Of a stretch of DNA of 34,004 bases, positions 18,879 through 29,206 are shown in pieces (within the stretch, counting starts at the first letter, position 1; every line of letters begins with the position of its first letter). The position numbers were made by a program, and so were the translations under genes. The notes beneath the pieces were generated by a model. That model ran no database searches and was not told the origin of the DNA. It saw nothing but the letters and a program-made list of their open reading frames with translations. Origin of the DNA: Candidatus Eiseniibacteriota bacterium (GTDB taxonomy: Bacteria > Eisenbacteria > RBG-16-71-46); the NCBI GenBank assembly GCA_025357055.1, contig JANXPZ010000056.1, positions 1 through 34,004 of the forward strand, given 5' to 3'.

Positions 18879-19241
18879 ATGGCGCAGCACGCGGGCCTCA
18901 CGCTGGAGCGCTGGGCCGGGTTCACGCCCGACCAGCAGCTGATGATGATCGCAAACGAGATGAACCGCGCCGCGAAGCTGATGGCGCCACCGGACCGGGA
19001 ACGGCTGAAGAACTCCTACGCGCGGGCGCTTCAGCTCACGGATCTCACGGTCGCCGCGCGTCGCGAACACGGTTTTCGCCGCGAACTGCTGCGCTGGCGT
19101 GACCTGCTCGCCCGCCTGTGGCTCGGCGCCGGGAGCGACCCGCAGGCTCACCGGGACGCGATGCGTTGTCTGTTGCTCTTCTCGCCAGCGACGGCGCGGC
19201 AGATCCCGTTCGTGCTCGGGGAAGGCCCCGCCGTTTCCTGA
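18879..19241 (+). CDS. Small unknown alpha-helical protein paired with DUF5674
   Basis: The 120-residue product is not recognised. It is mostly helical, with the pattern FTPDQQLMMIANEMNRAAKL near the start and YARALQLTDLTVAAR then RRELLRWRDLLARLWLG in the middle, and no signal peptide or membrane segment. The pattern (a start like QL..IA.E..RA, then RALQL.DLT, then ELLR.R..L) resembles small conserved proteins of unknown function from uncultivated bacteria; this is memory, not a search result. It begins one base after the DUF5674 stop, so the two are surely co-translated and may form a complex or a toxin-antitoxin-like pair, which is speculation. Confidence 0.7.
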   Translation: MAQHAGLTLERWAGFTPDQQLMMIANEMNRAAKLMAPPDRERLKNSYARALQLTDLTVAARREHGFRRELLRWRDLLARLWLGAGSDPQAHRDAMRCLLLFSPATARQIPFVLGEGPAVS

Positions 19242-19298
19242 GCGGCCCGTTGACCGGCCACCCGCGCGGCCGCGCTGGCCGCGGGACCACCGAGGCGC

Positions 19299-19304
19299 TA
19301 GCCT
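19299..19304 (+). promoter_or_regulatory. -10 element TAGCCT placed for a leaderless transcript
   Basis: TAGCCT ends seven bases before ATG 19312, so transcription should begin at the start codon. No Shine-Dalgarno site is present. The best -35-like match (TTGACC at 19250) is too far upstream. Confidence 0.4.
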
Positions 19305-19311
19305 GACGCGC

Positions 19312-20004
19312 ATGAACGGGGACCCGGCATCCTCCTGCGGCTGCGCGGCGCCGGAAACCACACCACCCCCCGCCCGCGCCCACCAGCTGCGCGACGCGCT
19401 GCGGCTCGAATACCTGACCATCGGCTGGAACGCGATCGAGGGGATCGTCGCGGTCGCCGCCGCGCTCGCGGCACGCAGCATCGCCCTGCTCGCCTTCGGG
19501 CTCGACTCCTTCGTCGAGACGGCCTCTGCGCTCATCCTCGTCTGGCGGCTCGGCGCGGAGCTCGACGCCGTGACCGCGGACCGGACGCTGGACCGTGCGG
19601 CCGTCGAACGGCTCGACCGGCGCGCACATCGCCTGGTCGGATTCTCGCTCTTCCTGCTGGCCGCATACGTGGCATTCGACGCGATCGGGGCCCTCTGGCG
19701 ACACGAGCGCCCCGAGCCGAGCCTGCCGGGCATCGCGATCACGGCGCTCTCGCTCGGCGTCATGGCCTGGCTGGCCCGCACCAAGCGCCGCGCGGCCAAC
19801 CGCCTCGGGAGCCGCGCACTCGCAGCCGACTCGTTCCAGACCACCGCCTGCTGGTGGCTCTCGCTCATCACCCTGGGAGGCATCGGGCTCAACCTCCTGC
19901 TCGGCTGGTGGTGGGCCGATCCGCTGGCCGCCCTGGGCATGACCTGGTTCCTCGCCGCCGAGGGCCGCGAAGCGTGGCGCGGAGCAGACTGCGGCTGCCC
20001 CTGA
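19312..20004 (+). CDS. Short cation-diffusion-facilitator-like transporter with CGC motifs at both ends
   Basis: The 230-residue protein has about six membrane helices. Helix 2 carries FGLDSFVETASA (Asp65) and helix 5 AADSFQTTACWW, at the places where CDF metal-efflux proteins hold their intramembrane metal site. The usual cytoplasmic C-terminal metal-sensing domain is missing; typical CDF proteins have about 300 residues. Both tails instead hold a Cys-Gly-Cys: Cys9/Cys11 at the N-terminus and Cys227/Cys229 in DCGCP at the extreme C-terminus. These may collect soft metals such as Zn, Cu or Cd. The ion is not predictable. A leaderless -10 element lies directly upstream. Confidence 0.75.
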   Translation: MNGDPASSCGCAAPETTPPPARAHQLRDALRLEYLTIGWNAIEGIVAVAAALAARSIALLAFGLDSFVETASALILVWRLGAELDAVTADRTLDRAAVERLDRRAHRLVGFSLFLLAAYVAFDAIGALWRHERPEPSLPGIAITALSLGVMAWLARTKRRAANRLGSRALAADSFQTTACWWLSLITLGGIGLNLLLGWWWADPLAALGMTWFLAAEGREAWRGADCGCP

Positions 20005-20092: not shown

Positions 20093-21553
20093 ATGAGACC
20101 CCTGCCGATAGCCGCCCGCCTGCTCGCCCTGGTATCCGGCTTCGTCGTCCTCACCGCGCTGCTGGCGGGCTGCTCCTCCGGCCCCCCCGTGCTGGCGAAG
20201 GTCGGCGACCGCGCCATCACGGTGGATGACTTCCTCGACGTGGCCAGCCGCAGCCAGGACCAGTACACGGGGAGCCCCGACTCCGCCAAGGCCGCCCTGC
20301 TCGAGGACCTGGTCAAGCGCGAACTGGTGGTGGGCGAAGCCATCCGGCGCGGCCTGGTCAGCCCCGGGGACCAGGCCCGGATGCTCCAGCAGGCGCAGGA
20401 GCAGGTCGCGCTGCGTGCGCTGATCCAGCAGCTGGCCCCGGGCGACGTGCCGGTGAGCGACGCCGAGGTCCAGGCCCTCTACCAGCAGCGCGCCAACGAG
20501 GCGCACGCGCTGATCGTGTTCACGCCCGACCGCGCGGCGTGTGCCCAGGCGTTCGGAGAGATCCAGCGCGGCGCCGATTTCGGGGCGACCGCCGACCGCT
20601 TCAACACCACGGGCATGACCCCGCCGGGTGGCGACCTGGGATTCATCACCCCCGGCACGCTGATGCCCGTCCTCGACGAAGCGCTGACCCGCGGCGCCCC
20701 CGGGAAGGTGCTCGGCCCGATCGAGTCGCCGGCCGACGGCTGGTTCCTCGTCAAGGTGCTCGAGCGCCGGCCACGCCAGCAGGAGCCCTTCGAGCAGGTG
20801 AGCCCGATGCTGCGTCAGGGCCTCCAGCAGGGCAAACAGCGCGTCCTGATGAACCGCGTCCAGCGCGAACTGACGACGCAATACCACGTGACCGTCGAGG
20901 CGGGCGCGTTGCAGGCGCTCTTCGCGCGTCACAACGCTCCGCAGGACACGGTGTCGGTGGGCGGTCTCCGGGTGCCGGTCGCCGCCCGACCCACGCCCGA
21001 AGAGGAGCGCCAGGTGCTCGTGCGCTACGACGGCGCGGAAGGCCGGCCTGGCACCTACACGCTGGGGGACGCGGTCCTGGACCTGCAGGACCGGTCGAGA
21101 CCCGGCCCCAACTGGTCGGTCATGCCCACGATCGACCTGTGGCTGAAGAACGCGGCGCTGCAGCGCGTCGCCCTCATCGAGGCCCGCCGGCGCCGCCTCG
21201 GCGAGGAGCCGGCCCGCGCCCGCGCGGCCCGCGCGCAGGTGGAGAACGCGCTGCTCCAGACCGCCTACGAGACGCTCGTGCTGAGCCCGACCACGATCAG
21301 CGGGGAGGACGTGCAGGCCGCCTACCTGCGCCACGCGGCGCAACTGCTGGGTGGGGACGGCATGCCGATCGAGTACGCGAAACTCGACCCGAACACCCGG
21401 CAGGCGCTCCAGAGCGAGGCGCTCGAATTCGCGCGCGAGCGCCGGCTCAAGGAGCTGACGGACTCCCTCGCGCTCCAGCGGAAGCCGGTCATCCACCAGG
21501 AACGATTGAAGCGGCTCCCGTGGCCGGTGCCCCCGGCCGGGCCGGGAAGGTAG
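20093..21553 (+). CDS. Periplasmic parvulin-type peptidyl-prolyl isomerase lipoprotein
   Basis: The 486-residue product starts at ATG 20093 behind AAAGGA. It has a lipoprotein signal with lipobox LLAGC (Cys27). A SurA-like N-terminal chaperone region follows (VLAKVGDRAITVDDFLDV, then LLEDLVKRELVVGEAIRRGL), then one parvulin domain (~140-230) with GADFGATADRF and GGDLGFITPGTLMP. The last ~240 residues are helical and not assigned, with YTLGDAVLDLQ suggesting a second chaperone-like half. It should fold or escort proteins in the periplasm, anchored to a membrane by lipid. It converges on the response-regulator gene with only 12 bases between the stops. Confidence 0.88.
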   Translation: MRPLPIAARLLALVSGFVVLTALLAGCSSGPPVLAKVGDRAITVDDFLDVASRSQDQYTGSPDSAKAALLEDLVKRELVVGEAIRRGLVSPGDQARMLQQAQEQVALRALIQQLAPGDVPVSDAEVQALYQQRANEAHALIVFTPDRAACAQAFGEIQRGADFGATADRFNTTGMTPPGGDLGFITPGTLMPVLDEALTRGAPGKVLGPIESPADGWFLVKVLERRPRQQEPFEQVSPMLRQGLQQGKQRVLMNRVQRELTTQYHVTVEAGALQALFARHNAPQDTVSVGGLRVPVAARPTPEEERQVLVRYDGAEGRPGTYTLGDAVLDLQDRSRPGPNWSVMPTIDLWLKNAALQRVALIEARRRRLGEEPARARAARAQVENALLQTAYETLVLSPTTISGEDVQAAYLRHAAQLLGGDGMPIEYAKLDPNTRQALQSEALEFARERRLKELTDSLALQRKPVIHQERLKRLPWPVPPAGPGR

Positions 21554-21565
21554 TCCGGGCCGCCT

Positions 21566-22363
21566 CTACCTCAACCGGCGGCGAACCTCGGCTGCACGCC
21601 GTTCGCTCGCCTCGACGCGCGTGCCGTCCCGGAGCTTCAGGACCAGCACACCATCCTCGCCGCCGTAGCTCTCGATGGCGTCCACGTTGACGAGCGCGGC
21701 GCGATGCACGCGCACGAACTGCCCTTCGGGCAGCCGCTGCTCCAGTTCCTGCAGCGTGTAGTCCACGAGGTACTCGTGGGTCTCGCAGCGCGCCAGCACC
21801 AGCCGGTCGCGAGAGAAGATGAGCGGCACCTGGACCAGGTCGAGCAGCTTCACCTCGCGGCGATGCCGCACGGGCAGGCGCCGCAGCGGCGACAGCTGGC
21901 TCGCCATCCCGGGTGAGTCGAGCGCCTGGCGCAGCGCCTCGGCGCGCGCGGCAGGCCTGCCATTGCGGGCCTCGGCGACCACGCGCCGGACGGTCTCCGC
22001 CAGGCGCTCCCGCTTGAGCGGTTTGAGGATGTAGTCCAGCGCCGCCACCTCGAAGGCCTCGGTCGCGTACTTGTCGTAGGCGGTCACGAACACCACGATC
22101 GGCGCGTCCGCCCCGCGCAGGTGACGCGCCACCTCGAGCCCCGAGAGATCGGGCATGTGGATGTCGAGGAACGCCACGTCGGGCTTGAGGCTGGCGATCA
22201 GCTGCAGCGCCTCGGCCCCGCTCCGCGCCGCCCCCACCAGGTCGAGCTCCTCGTGCTCACCCAGCAGCTTCTCCAGGAACTGCCGCGCGCGCGGCTCGTC
22301 GTCGGCGATCAGGGCGCGCAGGCGCGTCCCGGCGGTCCCACCCTCGCTCGCGCGTGGACTCAT
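21566..22363 (-). CDS. LytTR-family response regulator
   Basis: The 265-residue product has a receiver domain (1-~130) with the acidic pocket ADDE, phospho-acceptor Asp67 in [20 protein letters not shown] and the Lys of LKPLKRE. A ~40-residue linker leads to a LytTR DNA-binding domain (~165-265): [28 protein letters not shown] and an ending like [12 protein letters not shown]. LytTR regulators bind paired direct repeats. The ATG (22363) overlaps the stop of the histidine-kinase gene, so the two are one translational unit. The stop is 12 bases from the convergent lipoprotein gene, and no terminator is visible between them. Confidence 0.95.
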
Positions 22364-24540
22364 CGGCTCACTCCCTTCGTGACCGGCCAGCGCAGGCGCA
22401 CCACAAAGCCCGGCTGCGGTGTTCCGCCGTCGCCCTTACGGGCGCCGGCCTCCATGGTGGCGTCCGTGCCGGCGAAGCGGCGCAGGCGCTGCTCGAGATT
22501 GGTCAGGCCCACACCCAGGCCCGGGGCGCCGCCCGACGGGGCGACCCCGTCGTCCAGGAACGTCAATTCGACGAATCCATCGTCCTGGCCGGCCACGAGC
22601 TCGAGCTGCAACCCCGGCGCGTTCGGCGCGCAGCCGTGCTTGAGGCTGTTCTCGACCAGCGGCTGCAGCAGCAGCGGCGGCACCGCCAGCGAGAGCAGTT
22701 CCTGAGGCCCGCGGTAGGCGAATGCGAGCGGGGTCTCGTAGCGTTCGCGCGCCACGCCCAGGTAGTCCTCGACGAAACCGATCTCCTCCGAGAGCAGGGC
22801 GACCGGACGGTTCCCCGCCTCCACGGTGTAGCGCAGCATGTCGGCCAGCCGCTCCGAGAAGCGCTGTGCGGCGGGCGGATCGGTCTCGATGAGGTAGGCG
22901 AGCGCGTTGAGCGCGTTGAAGAGGAAATGCGGCTGCACCTGCGCCTGCAGCGCCCGCAACTCGGCGCGCGTCGCGGCCTCGCGCAACTCGACGGCCTGGC
23001 GCTCGGCCGCCGCGCGGTGCTCCTGGAGCGCCAGGTTCTCGAGACGGATCCCGGCCTGGAGCAGCAGGTTCTCGACCGCGCGTTGCGCGTGCTCGGGCAG
23101 CGCTTCGCCCGCGGCCAGGCGCGGCGGGCCCGGCTCGGGCCACTCGAGCGCCACCTCGCGCTTGAGCCCGCGCTGGAGCCCGACCTCGACCGAGCGGCGC
23201 ACCTCGTCGTGGTCGAGCGCCCCCAGCAGCTCGCGCCCGGCCTGGTCCAGGGCGACGCGCAGGACGTGGGGGTCGCGTCCATAGAGCCGGTCCAGGGCAT
23301 GCTGGGTCCGGGTCCAGAGCGGCGCGAAGGCGAAGGCCACGGCCAGCGCGGCGACGACGTTGAAGATCATGGACTGCTCGCCGGTGGCCGCGGCGAAGAG
23401 CCGCTGGGAGCCCACCACGACCGCGAGGTAGATCCCGGCCAGCACGACGGAGAGCAGGGCGAAGGGCAGGCTCTGGACCACCACGCGGCGCGGGTCGAAC
23501 ACCGGGTCGTTGGCGATGAGGTAGGCGATCACCAGCGGCGCCGCCAGGAAGGCGAAGGTGATGGAAGTGGAGGCCAGGCGCACGAGCGGGAGCGAGAGCC
23601 AGTCCATGAACTGCGGGGATTGCCAGAGGGCCGACGAGGCGGCGTTCAACAGCAGCGTGACCGCCACGGCCAGTGCCAGCACCCGCTCGCCCGACCGGGG
23701 CTGGTGCCCCTCCCGATCGCGTCGGGCGTAGTGCTCGATGAGCGAGAGCGTGCCCAGGGGCAGGGCGAGGGTCTGGAACCAGAGCATGCCCGGCCCGGAA
23801 TAGGCCTTGATCGGCCCGTGCCCGAAGATCCACAGCAGCGGCGGAGTGGCGTAGGCGAGGACGGTGACCCAGAACCACAGGCTGGCCGACGGGCGGGGCC
23901 GGCGCCACCGGGGCCGCGGGAAGACCGTCATGAAGTGCAGGTAGGCCGCCGGGTACCAGCAGATGAGTGCGGCGTAGACGTTCAGGTACGCGCGGAAGAG
24001 CGGACCGGCGTCGCCCTGCCGGTAGCCGAACAGGTCCCACACGACCGACACCGCCTGGAGCGTGGCGAGCCAGAGGAAGATCCAGGCCGCGCTGAGGTCG
24101 GGGCGCCGCCAGACCAGCAGGAAGGCCACGAGCGGGGCCGCGACGACCGTGGCGAGCGGGTAGATGGAAAGCCGCACGCGCATCCACAGGCTCAGCTTCA
24201 AGGGCGGCAGCGTCAGCCGGAGCACCTGGCCCTGGCGTTCGATCACCAGGTCGAGCGGCCCCTTCGGGTACCCGCCCTGCGGCTTCAGCTTCTTCCACTC
24301 CTCCTGGGTGGACGGGCGGCCCTCCACGAGCAGCAGCACGTCGCCCTTCTGGAGCAGACCTCTCGACGGCGGCCCCTCCGCCTTCGTGATGCGCGTCAAC
24401 CCGCGCGACGGCTCGTACTCGAACTCGGCGCCGAAGCGGGGGTACGGCGTGTGGGTGAGGAACCGCGGCAGGGCGATGGCGACGGCAAGCGCCACGGCCG
24501 CCACGGCGAGCAGCCGCCTGGTGCGATGACTGGCATTCAC
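22360..24540 (-). CDS. Membrane histidine kinase (His_kinase/LytS-like) with N-terminal PDZ-like domain
   Basis: The 726-residue kinase starts at GTG 24540 behind GGGAGAG. One membrane helix (~8-27) is followed by a PDZ-like domain (~43-112): [37 protein letters not shown] and [14 protein letters not shown]. It should lie in the periplasm. Then come about seven to eight membrane helices (to ~410) and a linker with helical, GAF-like character. The catalytic part is the His_kinase type paired with LytTR regulators: His538 in [18 protein letters not shown]-box [10 protein letters not shown], and G-box [13 protein letters not shown]. The PDZ-like domain implies sensing of peptide C-termini or misfolded proteins; this is inference. 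It is divergent from surA and translationally coupled to the response regulator. Confidence 0.92.
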
Positions 24541-24614
24541 GAGCGGACTCTCCCACACGGGCGGAGCCCTATCAACGGGTACGGACGAAGGGGGAGGCCG
24601 GTCCACGATGACCA

Positions 24615-24633
24615 AGGATACCCCGGACCGGGG
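24615..24633 (-). promoter_or_regulatory. Possible kinase promoter (-10) with adjoining palindrome
   Basis: On the minus strand TATCCT (24620-24615) is a -10 candidate about 75 bases before the kinase start. Directly upstream of it lies CCCCGGACCGGGG (24621-24633), a perfect 6+1+6 palindrome that would sit in the promoter spacer and could be an operator. The -35 is poor. Confidence 0.35.
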
Positions 24634-24692
24634 AGGGGGCCACCGGCAGCGGACGAGCGCGGCAGTTGGGGGGGCGAAAGCCCCGGTCGAGG

Positions 24693-24744
24693 TTGCCGGG
24701 GGGCCCGCCGGCGCATAGGCTCCGACCGAAGGAGTCGCTATACT
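24693..24744 (+). promoter_or_regulatory. surA promoter region
   Basis: The -35 TTGCCG (24693-24698) and -10 TAGGCT (24716-24721) are 17 bases apart. A second, better -10, TATACT (24739-24744), lies downstream but without a good -35. Transcription starts near 24728 or 24751 would give leaders of about 100-125 bases. The divergent kinase gene is on the other side. Confidence 0.5.
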
Positions 24745-24790
24745 GCCGCGTCGCTCCCAACCAGGGGCTCCGGAGCATCCGGCCGGGCCC

Positions 24791-24833
24791 CGGTCCATTC
24801 GCGCCACGCGGAGTCCTCCGCGCGGCCGGACCG
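24791..24833 (+). promoter_or_regulatory. Nested hairpin in the surA leader
   Basis: CGGTCC (24791-24796) pairs with GGACCG (24828-24833). Inside, CGCGGAG (24807-24813) pairs with CTCCGCG (24816-24822). The structure ends only 7 bases before ATG 24841, and the GGAGGT ribosome site at 24843-24848 lies just past it, so folding could affect initiation. Confidence 0.35.
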
Positions 24834-24852
24834 TCATCCCATGGAGGTCACG

Positions 24853-26286
24853 TTGAAGTCCTCGCGCTGGGCGCTCGCCGCCCTCCTGCTTGCCATCGCG
24901 GTCCTGCCCGCGCTGGCCCAGACCGCGAAGCCCCGCTCGACCGGAACGCCCGGCGCGGCGCGGCCCGCAGCCCCGAGGACCGCCCCGGCCCCACGTCCGA
25001 TCGCGCCCGCCGCGAGCGCTCAGCGCCTCGACGGCATCGCCGCGGTGGTGAACGACGAGGTCGTGCTGCAGAGCGACGTGGAGGAGCAGGTCTACCTGTT
25101 CGTGATGCGCAACCAGCTGCGCCCCGACTCGGCCATGGTGGACACGCTGCGCCGGCAGGTGCTCGAAGAGATGATCAACGAGAAGCTGGTCGTGGCCGAG
25201 GCGAAGCGCCAGGGCCTGGTGGCGAGCGAGGCCGAGGTGAACCGCGAGGTCGACAAGGCGATCCATGACGCCAAGGACCGCATCGGGCCCGCCGGCTTCC
25301 TGGAACAACTCGCCAAGGAGAACCTGACCGAGGAGCGGCTGCGCACGAAGTACCGCGAGGAGGCTCGCCGCCAGCAGCTCGCGCAGCGCATGGTGCAGAA
25401 GGCGCTGCCGCGCAAGCCGGTGCCGCAGGCCGAGGCCGAGACCTATTTCAAGGCGGACCCGGGCAAGTTCCCGCTGGCCCCCGGCCAGATCCGTCTCTCC
25501 GTGATCCAGATCCCGGTCATGCCCGACTCGGCGGCCGACGCCGTGGCGCACCAGCGGACGCTGGGGATCCGCAAGCGGATCGTGGGCGGCGAGAAGTTCG
25601 CGAAGGTCGCGGCCGAGATCTCGGATGACCCCGGCTCCGCCAAGGCCGGCGGCGACCTCGGGTTCTTCTCCCGGGGCGCGATGGACCCCGCGCTCGAGCA
25701 GGCGGCCTTCAGCCTCAAGCTCGACGAGGTGAGCGAGCCGGTGCGCAGCCCCTTCGGCTGGCATCTCCTGCAGGTCCTCGAGCGCGACACGATCAAGACC
25801 GTCGCGGGCGTGGACAGCCTCGGCCCCGACGGCGGGGTCATCCCCGAGGCGCACGCGCGCCACATCCTGATCCGGGTCGAGACCACCGACGCCGACCGCG
25901 AACGCGCCAAGGCGCTGGCCGACCGGGTCCGCACCGAGGCGGTCAAGGGCGTGGATTTCGGGACCCTGGTGCGCCGCTACAGCAAGTATCCCGCGCCGGC
26001 CGGCCCGGATGGCGACATCGGTTTCATCTCCCTGGGCTCGCTCATGCCCCAGATCCGCGCGGGACTCGACACGCTCGAGGTCGGCCAGGTCAGCGAGGCG
26101 CTCGAGAACCAGGCCGGCTTCAACATCTTCAAGATCGGTGACCGCAAGCCGGAGCGGCCGTACACGCTCGAAGAGATCAAGGAGCAGCTCCCCGAGGCGG
26201 TCGGGCAGATCAAGTTCAAGGAGCGCTACGACGAGTGGCTGAAGGGCCTGCGCGCGAAGGCCGTCGTCGAGATCCGCGGTCTCTAG
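24853..26286 (+). CDS. surA: SurA-type periplasmic chaperone / peptidyl-prolyl isomerase with two parvulin domains
   Basis: I favour TTG 24853, because GGAGGT (24843-24848) is correctly spaced for it and the product then starts MKSSRW with a normal signal peptide (cleaved near ALAQ); ATG 24841 would add four residues. The 477-residue protein has a Pro/Ala-rich spacer, then the SurA N-terminal domain ([39 protein letters not shown]). Two parvulin domains follow, with [13 protein letters not shown] and [15 protein letters not shown] in the first, and [21 protein letters not shown] and [13 protein letters not shown] in the second. It guides outer-membrane proteins through the periplasm. Downstream, ftsE-ftsX-envC follow on the same strand after an 84-base gap. 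Confidence 0.92.
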
Positions 26287-26299
26287 CACCGGACGAGCC

Positions 26300-26374
26300 A
26301 TGACCTGCTGCTGCGAATCCGACGGGACCGCGGTCTGCCGCGGACCGCGCCGCCCGCCGGGCGGCCGCCGATGA
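26300..26374 (+). CDS. Possible 24-residue Cys-rich leader peptide upstream of ftsE
   Basis: ATG 26300 opens a frame of 24 codons with three consecutive Cys codons near the start and an Arg/Pro/Gly-rich end. Its TGA (26372-26374) overlaps the ftsE ATG (ATGA). Only a weak GGACGAG site precedes it. Whether it is translated is unknown; the exact overlap and the absence of a ribosome site for ftsE make translational coupling plausible. Confidence 0.25.
   Translation: MTCCCESDGTAVCRGPRRPPGGRR
26328..26365 (+). promoter_or_regulatory. Two hairpins just before ftsE
   Basis: CCGCGG-TCTG-CCGCGG (26328-26343) and a 7-base stem GCCGCCC/GGGCGGC with loop GCC (26349-26365) lie in tandem. The second ends five bases before the ftsE ATG, where a ribosome site would normally be. 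Confidence 0.35.
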
Positions 26375-27105
26375 TCACGTTCGAGCACGTCTCGAGGCGC
26401 TACCGCGAGCGCCTGGCGCTCGACGCCGTCTCGTGGCACATGGACGAGGGCGAGTGCGTGGTCTTCGCCGGCCCCAGCGGGGCCGGCAAGACCACCCTGT
26501 TGCGGCTCATCACCCATGAGCTCGCGCCCAGTTCCGGCACCGTCACCGTCGGCACCTTCCGCGGGGCGCGCCTGCCCCGCGCCAAGCGCGCCCTGCTGCG
26601 CCGCACGCTCGGCATCATCTACGAGGACTTCCGGCTGCTGAACGACCGCACGGTGTTCGAGAACGTCGCGCTCGCCGTGCGCATCACCGGGCACTTCGCC
26701 GACGCCGAAGTCGTGCCGCGCACGCTCTACGCGCTCGAAGAAGTGGGCCTGCAGCAGAAGCAGGCCGCCTACCCGTCCGAGCTCTCGGCCGGCGAGAAGC
26801 AGCGCGCGGCCATCGCGCGTGCCATCGTGAACCGCCCCGCCGTGGTGCTGGCCGACGAGCCCACCGGCGCGCTCGAGCCCGCCAGCGCGAAGGAGATCCT
26901 CGCGTTGCTGCGCCGCATCCACGAGGAGGGCGCGGCGCTCCTGGTGGTCACGACCCGCCCCGAGGTCGGAGCGGAGCTGGGCGGGCGCGTCCTCCGGCTC
27001 CAGGACGGCCGGATCGCGGCAGACGAGGCACCCGCGCGCTCGCCCTACGCCCAGCCGGCGTTCGGCGTCACCCCGCCCGCCGCGACGCCGGACCCGGGGG
27101 CCTGA
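26371..27105 (+). CDS. ftsE: FtsE-like cell-division ABC ATPase with altered catalytic loops
   Basis: The 244-residue ATPase is identified by FtsE-type sequence (VSRRYRERLALDAVSW, DFRLLNDRTVFENVALAV) and by ftsX directly after. Walker A GPSGAGKTT (Lys40), signature LSAGEKQR (138-145) and Walker B VVLADE (Asp162-Glu163) are intact. Three other loops differ from the norm. The Q-loop Gln is Glu85 (IIYEDFRLL), the D-loop Asp is Glu169 (GALEP instead of NLDP), and the H-loop His is Thr195 (VVTTRPE instead of a VATHD-like motif). A ~25-residue Pro-rich tail is extra. FtsE normally drives FtsX to turn on cell-wall hydrolases through EnvC. Here ATP may be bound but hydrolysed slowly or differently. 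Confidence 0.9.
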   Translation: MITFEHVSRRYRERLALDAVSWHMDEGECVVFAGPSGAGKTTLLRLITHELAPSSGTVTVGTFRGARLPRAKRALLRRTLGIIYEDFRLLNDRTVFENVALAVRITGHFADAEVVPRTLYALEEVGLQQKQAAYPSELSAGEKQRAAIARAIVNRPAVVLADEPTGALEPASAKEILALLRRIHEEGAALLVVTTRPEVGAELGGRVLRLQDGRIAADEAPARSPYAQPAFGVTPPAATPDPGA

Positions 27106-27107
27106 GC

Positions 27108-27965
27108 GTGCACCTGTACTATCTGCGCGAGGCGTGGCGCTCGTTCCGCCACCACCAGGGGCTGGCGTGGACAGCCATGATCTCCCTCACGGCGACGCTG
27201 CTGCTGTGCGGCATCTTCCTGCTGCTCACGCACAACGCGCAGTCGGCGGTGCGCTTCATCGGCGACCGGCGCGAGATGGTGGTCTACCTCCGCGACGAGA
27301 TCGCCCCCGAACAGCGCGACGCCCTGATCGCGCGGCTCAATGAGCTCTACGGGAGCACCACCTTCGTGAGCCGCGAGCAGGCCTGGGAGGAGTTCTCGCA
27401 GCAGATCGGCGACCCGCAGCTGTTGCAGGCCGTGGACCAGAACCCGCTGCCCGCCTCGCTGCGCGTGCGCCTGCGGCCCGAACTGCTCAACTACCCCGCC
27501 ATGGAGCAGGCCGCGAAGCAGGTCTCGCAGTTCCCCGAAGTCGAGGACGTGCGCTACGGCGGCGAGTGGGTGCGGCGGCTCGACGAACTGCAGGCCACGC
27601 TCGCGCGCGGCTCGCTGGTGGTCGGGATCGCGGTCGCGCTCGCGATCCTGCTGGTCATCTACAACACCATCCGCCTGACCGTGATGGCGCGCCGCCGCGA
27701 GGTCGAGATCATGATCCGCCTCGGCGCCTCCGACCGCTTCATCGCCACGCCGTTCGCGCTCGAGGCCCTCGGCCAGACCCTGGTCTCGGCGCTGGCGGCG
27801 CTCGCCCTGCTCTTCACGCTCGAGCAGTTCGCCGTGCAGCAGGTCGTGCACGCGACCTTCCTCCCGCCCGTCTGGATCGCGGCCTTCCTCGGCGGGGCCG
27901 TCCTGCTCGCGTGGGCTGCCGCCGCCCTCGCGCTCGCGCGCACACTCCGCTCGGCCGGGCCATGA
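27108..27965 (+). CDS. ftsX: FtsX-like cell-division permease
   Basis: The 285-residue protein starts at GTG 27108, two bases after the ftsE stop. It has the FtsX layout: an N-terminal helix (~20-42), a periplasmic domain (~45-165) with MVVYLRDEIAPEQRDAL, TTFVSREQAWEEF and NPLPASLRVRL, then three helices in the C-terminal FtsX domain with MARRREVEIMIRLGASDRFI. The periplasmic domain is the part that contacts EnvC-like activators. The stop overlaps the start of the envC-like gene (ATGA), so the three proteins are made together. Confidence 0.93.
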   Translation: MHLYYLREAWRSFRHHQGLAWTAMISLTATLLLCGIFLLLTHNAQSAVRFIGDRREMVVYLRDEIAPEQRDALIARLNELYGSTTFVSREQAWEEFSQQIGDPQLLQAVDQNPLPASLRVRLRPELLNYPAMEQAAKQVSQFPEVEDVRYGGEWVRRLDELQATLARGSLVVGIAVALAILLVIYNTIRLTVMARRREVEIMIRLGASDRFIATPFALEALGQTLVSALAALALLFTLEQFAVQQVVHATFLPPVWIAAFLGGAVLLAWAAAALALARTLRSAGP

Positions 27966-29206
27966 GCCGGAGGCTGCCCGCGCTGGCGCTCGCGGCCGCG
28001 CTCGCGGCCGGGCTGCCCGCGCCCGCGGCCGTTCGCGCGCAGTCCCCGCCGGCGGACAGCGCCACGAGCCACGCCCGCGAGCAGCAGCTGCGTCTCGAGG
28101 CGTCCAAGCGGCGCGAGCTCGAGGAGATCAACCAGCAGGCCCGCGAGAGCCGCGAGCAGGCCAGCCGTCTCAAGGGCAGGGAGACCCAGGCGCTCGGCCA
28201 GCTGCGCCGCACCCAGCGCGAGTTCAATCTCACGCGCCGCCGGTTGCGCACGCTGCAGAACCGTCGCAACGCGCTCGGCCAGCAGCTCGGCGTCACGCGC
28301 GAGACCCTGCAGCAGACGCTGCTCACGCTCGACCAGCAGAAGGCGAAGCTCGCGCGCCGCCTGCGCAACATGTACAAGGTCGGCGCCGAACGGGAGCTCG
28401 AGTTCCTGCTCTCGACCGACTCCTTCGCCCAGTTGCTGGCGCGCTGGGACTTCGTCGTGATGGTCGCCGAGCAGGACCGGGTGCTGCTCGAGGACATCCA
28501 GGGCAAGAAGGAGCAGGTCCAGGCCGTTCAGCAGCAGCTCGAGGCGAACCTCGGCGAGACCCGCGTCAACGAACAGCAGACCGCGACGCAGAACCGCAAG
28601 CTCAGCCAGCTGACCACGCAGCGCGAGCGGCAGGTCGCGCAGATCCGCACCGAGCGCAAGACCTACGAGGCGGCCGCGGCCGAGCTGGAGAAGACCGCGA
28701 AGGACATCCAGCGGCTGCTGGCCCGGCTCGAGCGCCAGCGCCAGACCGAGGATCAGCGGCGCAAGGCGGGCGGGCGCACGCCCGAGCCCTACACCGGCGA
28801 CTTCGCGCGGGCCCGCAAGCGGCTCGACTGGCCGGTCGAGGGCAGCGTCGTGGGACGCTTCGGCCCGGAACGCCACCCGCGCTTCGGTACCACCACGCTC
28901 AACAACGGCATCGACATCGCGTCGACCACGGGCGCGGCCGTGCGCGCCGTGGCGCGGGGCCGCGTGGACTTCACCAGCGACGATTTCGCCGCATTCGGCC
29001 AGGTCATCGTGGTGAACCACGGCAACGGCTACTACACGCTCTACGGTCATCTCTCCGAGATCCTGGTGAAGCAGGAGCAGGAGGTGGCGGCGGGACAGAC
29101 GATCGGCCGCGTGGGCGACAGCGGAACGTCGCTCAAGGGCACGGCGCTCCACTTCGAGGTCCGCAACGGCGCCAGCGCGCTCGATCCGGAGGACTGGCTG
29201 AAGTAG
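27962..29206 (+). CDS. envC: EnvC-like coiled-coil protein with degenerate LytM (M23) domain
   Basis: The 414-residue protein has a signal peptide (cleaved near VRAQ) and a long coiled coil (~35-270) rich in Gln, Arg and Glu, with the conserved RRLRNMYKVGAERELEFLLS hinge of EnvC-type proteins. A C-terminal LytM fold follows (~285-414). In active M23 enzymes the first motif is HxGxD; here it is N314-N-G-I-D318, so the His ligand is lost. The HxH motif reads A395-L-H397, so the catalytic His is lost too. His363 in LYGHL is kept. It should therefore not cut peptidoglycan but activate an amidase, as E. coli EnvC does. It overlaps ftsX by four bases and ends the operon. Confidence 0.92.
   Translation: MSRRLPALALAAALAAGLPAPAAVRAQSPPADSATSHAREQQLRLEASKRRELEEINQQARESREQASRLKGRETQALGQLRRTQREFNLTRRRLRTLQNRRNALGQQLGVTRETLQQTLLTLDQQKAKLARRLRNMYKVGAERELEFLLSTDSFAQLLARWDFVVMVAEQDRVLLEDIQGKKEQVQAVQQQLEANLGETRVNEQQTATQNRKLSQLTTQRERQVAQIRTERKTYEAAAAELEKTAKDIQRLLARLERQRQTEDQRRKAGGRTPEPYTGDFARARKRLDWPVEGSVVGRFGPERHPRFGTTTLNNGIDIASTTGAAVRAVARGRVDFTSDDFAAFGQVIVVNHGNGYYTLYGHLSEILVKQEQEVAAGQTIGRVGDSGTSLKGTALHFEVRNGASALDPEDWLK

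Follow-up and report, generated by a model that had tools for sequence, protein, structure and literature searches.

In this study, we describe a sensor kinase and LytTR regulator pair encoded in the window (the whole stretch of DNA that was analysed, 34,004 nt), which, judging from its sequence and distribution, is a real, conserved and family-restricted two-component system. The best explanation, which we consider probable, is that a ComP-type input is connected here to a kinase of the LytS type and to a LytTR regulator which activates its own operon, and that a gene array which already existed received the pair in reverse orientation. Such a system would couple a ComP-type PDZ-membrane input to LytS/LytTR output in an uncultured phylum whose members have an outer membrane. 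In the proposed mechanism, the PDZ domain would bind a periplasmic peptide or protein by its C-terminus. The kinase would autophosphorylate on His538 and pass the phosphate to Asp67 of the regulator, and the regulator would bind direct repeats of CCGCGYTCGTC which lie some 45 to 75 bp upstream of the start of kinase transcription, and may thereby activate its own operon by positive feedback. The insertion into the mfd-lipoprotein-surA-ftsEX-M23 array would date to the common ancestor of one Candidatus Eisenbacteria family, where surA would be driven by its own promoter.

Open reading frames and domain searches placed the pair as the earlier note had described, with a parvulin lipoprotein gene converging on it at one side and surA diverging from it at the other. 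The genes, with the input domain of the kinase, are as follows.

20093-21553, forward strand: parvulin-type (PpiC/SurA-like) lipoprotein gene; lipobox LLAGC at the N-terminus, Rotamase_2 46.7 bits
21566-22363, reverse strand: LytTR response regulator with receiver Asp67; Response_reg 84.9 bits and LytTR 61.3 bits
22360-24540, reverse strand: sensor kinase with GTG start; Pfam His_kinase PF06580 76.9 bits, TM profile, ORF and alignment
24202-24444, reverse strand: predicted periplasmic PDZ domain of the kinase, about residues 33-113; PDZ_6 in orthologues, profile, model and Foldseek
24841-26286, forward strand: surA, divergent from the kinase; SurA_N and two parvulin domains, alternative start TTG at 24853
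26371-27105, forward strand: ftsE, downstream of surA; ABC_tran, order kept in the class
27108-27965, forward strand: ftsX; FtsX_ECD and FtsX domains
27962-29206, forward strand: M23 peptidase with PcsB-type coiled coil (EnvC/PcsB-like); Peptidase_M23 98 bits, CC_PcsB, 4-nt overlap with ftsX

The regulator and kinase genes overlap by 4 nt (ATGA), and the lipoprotein and regulator genes converge with a 12-bp gap. The window also contains a cation diffusion facilitator-like gene (19099-20004; 47.7 bits, below the cut-off) between mfd and the lipoprotein gene, which was not seen at this place in the relatives.

The kinase has the order TM1, PDZ, about nine TM helices, linker, LytS-type dimerisation/phosphoacceptor domain (His538) and ATPase domain. 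For the PDZ domain, the window kinase itself gave no match with Pfam and no equivalog in NCBIfam; PDZ_6 was matched in 9 of 18 kinase orthologues (Pfam), and the profile built from the orthologues matched the PDZ domains of DegP, RseP and AlgW. Using an AlphaFold model of residues 1-130 (pLDDT 75), Foldseek returned the PDZ domains of CtpA, AlgW, DegS and HtrA, and the segment claimed earlier (about residues 43-112) is predicted to fold as a PDZ domain. A chance resemblance was rejected because profile and fold agree. The model of the full-length kinase (pLDDT 73, pTM 0.48) is too poor for judging the packing of the TM helices. Hydropathy indicated about 10 TM helices, and in the orthologue alignment the loops facing the same side of the membrane as the N-terminus are rich in Arg. 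Because the TM number is even and the positive loops lie on the N side, the PDZ domain is predicted to be periplasmic, as had been proposed, and the kinase domain cytoplasmic. In the kinase part, the H-box and N-box (LVENSLKHG) of PF06580 are intact and conserved among orthologues, and the best structural match is the GanS kinase domain. The LytTR regulator shares an operon with the PF06580 kinase, and the two are kept together in relatives. This combination is that of the known LytS/LytTR pairs AlgZ-AlgR and BtsS-BtsR, and the regulator comes nearest to the BtsR model, with 163 bits against a cut-off of 246; the difference from these pairs is the input, which is here a PDZ domain with about nine TM helices.

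The earlier note knew of no described system of this form, and this is not supported, since ComP of Bacillus has the same layout and the sensor form is therefore already known. In Bacillus ComP, which has ten TM helices, the PDZ domain forms the first extracytoplasmic loop, which spans residues 27-111 in BaComP (PMC9620489) and about 30-117 in the window kinase, and a streptococcal ComP-like kinase has one TM helix, a PDZ domain and nine TM helices (PMC3353171). The window kinase shares with ComP of the ComQXPA quorum sensing system the N-in orientation, TM1, the PDZ as the first extracytoplasmic loop, ten TM helices, a cytoplasmic subdomain and the kinase (PMC9620489, PMC3353171), a likeness of layout, compared by published description. 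In contrast, ComP pairs with the NarL-type regulator ComA, whereas the present pair belongs to an outer-membrane organism; the HPK7/HisKA_3-type kinase and NarL-type regulator of ComP-like systems are replaced here by a PF06580 kinase of the LytS type and by LytTR. Thus, what varies from the described sensor form is the LytS/LytTR output. For a PDZ kinase with LytTR, our literature search gave only the streptococcal ComP-like paper, and for a PDZ with SpoIIE and kinase architecture it gave none. In addition, PDZ-multiTM-SpoIIE proteins of the same phylum (L145, L146 and L147) align with the input module along most of its length, so that the PDZ and membrane module is co-linear in both groups and the output differs, being a SpoIIE-type phosphatase in place of a kinase. 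The predicted PDZ-membrane module is in this sense a reusable input, which is also joined to SpoIIE phosphatases. A search for the input module in plasmids gave no match.

Autoregulation of the pair is suggested by the intergenic region between the kinase and surA, in which three short features were recognised.

24652-24662, reverse strand: element CCGCGCTCGTC, putative LytTR half-site (proximal copy), conserved in 16 orthologous intergenic regions
24615-24620, reverse strand: TATCCT, putative -10 box for the operon of kinase and regulator, at a spacing of 31 bp downstream from the element, consensus-based
24739-24744, forward strand: putative -10 box TATACT of surA, consensus-based, matched with at most one change in 16 of 16 intergenic regions

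On the kinase strand, CCGCGYTCGTC was found exactly in 15 of the 16 kinase-surA intergenic regions and with at most one mismatch in all 16 (exact matches in shuffles: mean 0.08, maximum 2). In 14 of 16 genomes the promoter-proximal copy is followed, at a distance of 31-33 bp, by a -10-like hexamer (maximum 6/16 with random anchors in 1000 trials); counts over these 16 genomes are not independent because of shared ancestry, and the remainder of the intergenic regions has diverged. Five genomes have a second copy, CCGCGCCGGTC, which is 20 bp nearer the promoter and holds a 32-bp spacing, with a clear -10 box there in four; other genomes have a related half-site about 22 bp upstream of the element. 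AlgR binds CCGTTCGTC, and LytTR proteins recognise direct repeats about 12 bp apart (PMC4064291). The CCGCGYTCGTC-type element is close to this AlgR site; the direct-repeat period is 20-22 bp in many relatives, and the distal half-site is not recognisable in the intergenic region of the window. The element and its spacing have the geometry of a LytTR activator site, and we infer that the cognate regulator binds the element. Because the element keeps a fixed spacing to the kinase -10 box, the regulator likely controls its own operon.

When the direct-repeat pattern was scanned in 20 family genomes, about two matches per genome were obtained, compared with about one for the reversed control, and the kinase promoter was found in 8 genomes. 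With this strict pattern no other recurring locus with the repeat was recognised in these genomes, so no regulon can be named. The only other LytTR regulator of the genome G000 (C160; L058 5621-7490) has its own LytS-type kinase.

The distribution of the pair points to a family-specific gain. Among the 20 genomes from one Candidatus Eisenbacteria family, 19 carry the kinase and likewise the regulator, and the one exception is 79% complete; when 27 further genomes of the class were searched, neither gene gave a match above the strict cut-off. All named records with orthologues are Candidatus Eisenbacteria. Within the family, the regulator orthologues are 67-83% identical, and the gene order mfd, lipoprotein, regulator, kinase, surA, ftsE, ftsX, M23 is retained in most genomes. 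The neighbourhood on which the earlier note relied is conserved in about 13 genera, with the lipoprotein gene or surA not always the immediate neighbour. For example, genus g3 has a gene between the lipoprotein and regulator genes (L036 6359-8494, L043 5117-7270) which we take, from reading its sequence, to encode a GH31-like glycosidase, and genus g9 has a SpoIIE-type phosphatase gene between surA and the kinase (L046 1-1000, L123 9200-10478), an order which rests on a contig overlap of 253 bp at 98.4%. One assembly, G015, contains two copies of the kinase-regulator pair (on C310 and C246) and may be a mixed bin, because of these two copies and 6% contamination. In other families of the class, mfd, the lipoprotein PPIase gene, surA, ftsE, ftsX and the M23 gene are co-directional without the kinase pair, and the simplest reading would be a single reversed insertion of the pair between the lipoprotein gene and surA in the family ancestor. 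Because the foldase genes were adjacent before the insertion, the sandwich alone is not evidence that the kinase governs foldases, and we rejected this adjacency, which is older than the insertion, as functional evidence.

The PDZ domain itself bears on the ligand. Its carboxylate-binding loop PYxRLG (P32, Y33, R35 and G37) is nearly invariant (mean entropy 0.63), and few stretches in the N-terminal half of the kinase are so well conserved; the groove strand and groove helix (entropy 2.10 and 2.34) are among the most variable parts of the domain; we presume these segment assignments from predicted secondary structure and general knowledge of PDZ domains. The pattern suits a predicted receptor for peptide C-termini with diverged specificity, and it is harder to match with a ligand that stays constant, for instance the C-terminus of an outer-membrane protein. 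One alternative to the preferred reading is that the kinase senses a secreted or self-made peptide as a ComP-like cell-cell signal, with its regulon elsewhere and its location beside foldase genes incidental. This agrees with the ComP input layout, with the hypervariable groove combined with a conserved loop and with foldase neighbours that predate the insertion; however, no comX/comQ-like pheromone or modification gene was seen beside the pair, and the strict pattern revealed no second recurrent locus in the family, and we regard this alternative as doubtful.

A second alternative is that the nine-TM part senses the state of the membrane and that the PDZ domain is merely structural. In the orthologue alignment the TM core shows stronger conservation than the PDZ domain (mean entropy 1.31 vs 1.70), and there are related SpoIIE phosphatases which lack the PDZ and have retained part of the TM module. 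However, a purely structural domain does not readily account for a carboxylate-binding loop which ranks with the best-conserved stretches of the N-terminal half, and this explanation is unlikely.

The envelope-stress circuit of the earlier note, which itself offered the regulatory link as inference, likewise appears improbable. In this reading the PDZ domain would sense outer-membrane proteins that are not assembled, by their C-termini, and the regulator, acting in the divergent region that both promoters share, would raise expression of surA and perhaps of ftsEX-M23. Several observations favour it. First, the PDZ domain is related to those of DegS, AlgW and RseP, and its loop PYxRLG is conserved. 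Second, the divergent surA adjoins the kinase in all 16 genomes in which the kinase-surA interval was fully read. Third, BamA and DegP were found in the source genome, and RseA_N gave no match there. In contrast, the geometry of the element fits the kinase promoter and not the surA promoter: between it and the surA -10 box there are anywhere from 87 to 198 bp, and a second conserved element at the surA promoter, sought in the intergenic regions, was not found beyond the -10 box. The TATACT box of surA is also present in two genomes in which the surA contig ends short of the kinase. In genus g9, with the SpoIIE gene in between, surA keeps TATACT and the element is absent upstream of it; on the kinase side of this genus the exact element is also absent, and a GCGYTGGGA direct repeat with a 21 bp period is found instead. 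The highly variable groove strand and helix are also not what a constant ligand would lead us to expect. Variable distances do not prevent a regulator from acting on a divergent gene, and for this reason the spacing lowers the claim of surA control without removing it; an action of the regulator on surA is possible, with the balance of the sequence evidence against it. If surA control were true, the pair would be an envelope-stress sensor of new design, and the 11-bp element with the promoter pair is a defined target for a direct test of it.

The likeness to the sigma-E pathway of DegS, AlgW and RseP lies in a periplasmic PDZ domain related in fold and profile, and the differences are a kinase without protease domain, a genome without an RseA_N match and a putative output by phosphorelay. 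The more specific proposal, that a PDZ receptor for unassembled envelope protein C-termini sets the supply of SurA and FtsEX-M23 through a LytTR phosphorelay in place of the sigma-E protease cascade of E. coli, is quite improbable. As a separate observation, a DegP-like PDZ stretch was found directly before a second BamA-like gene (G000:C14 3118-5782).
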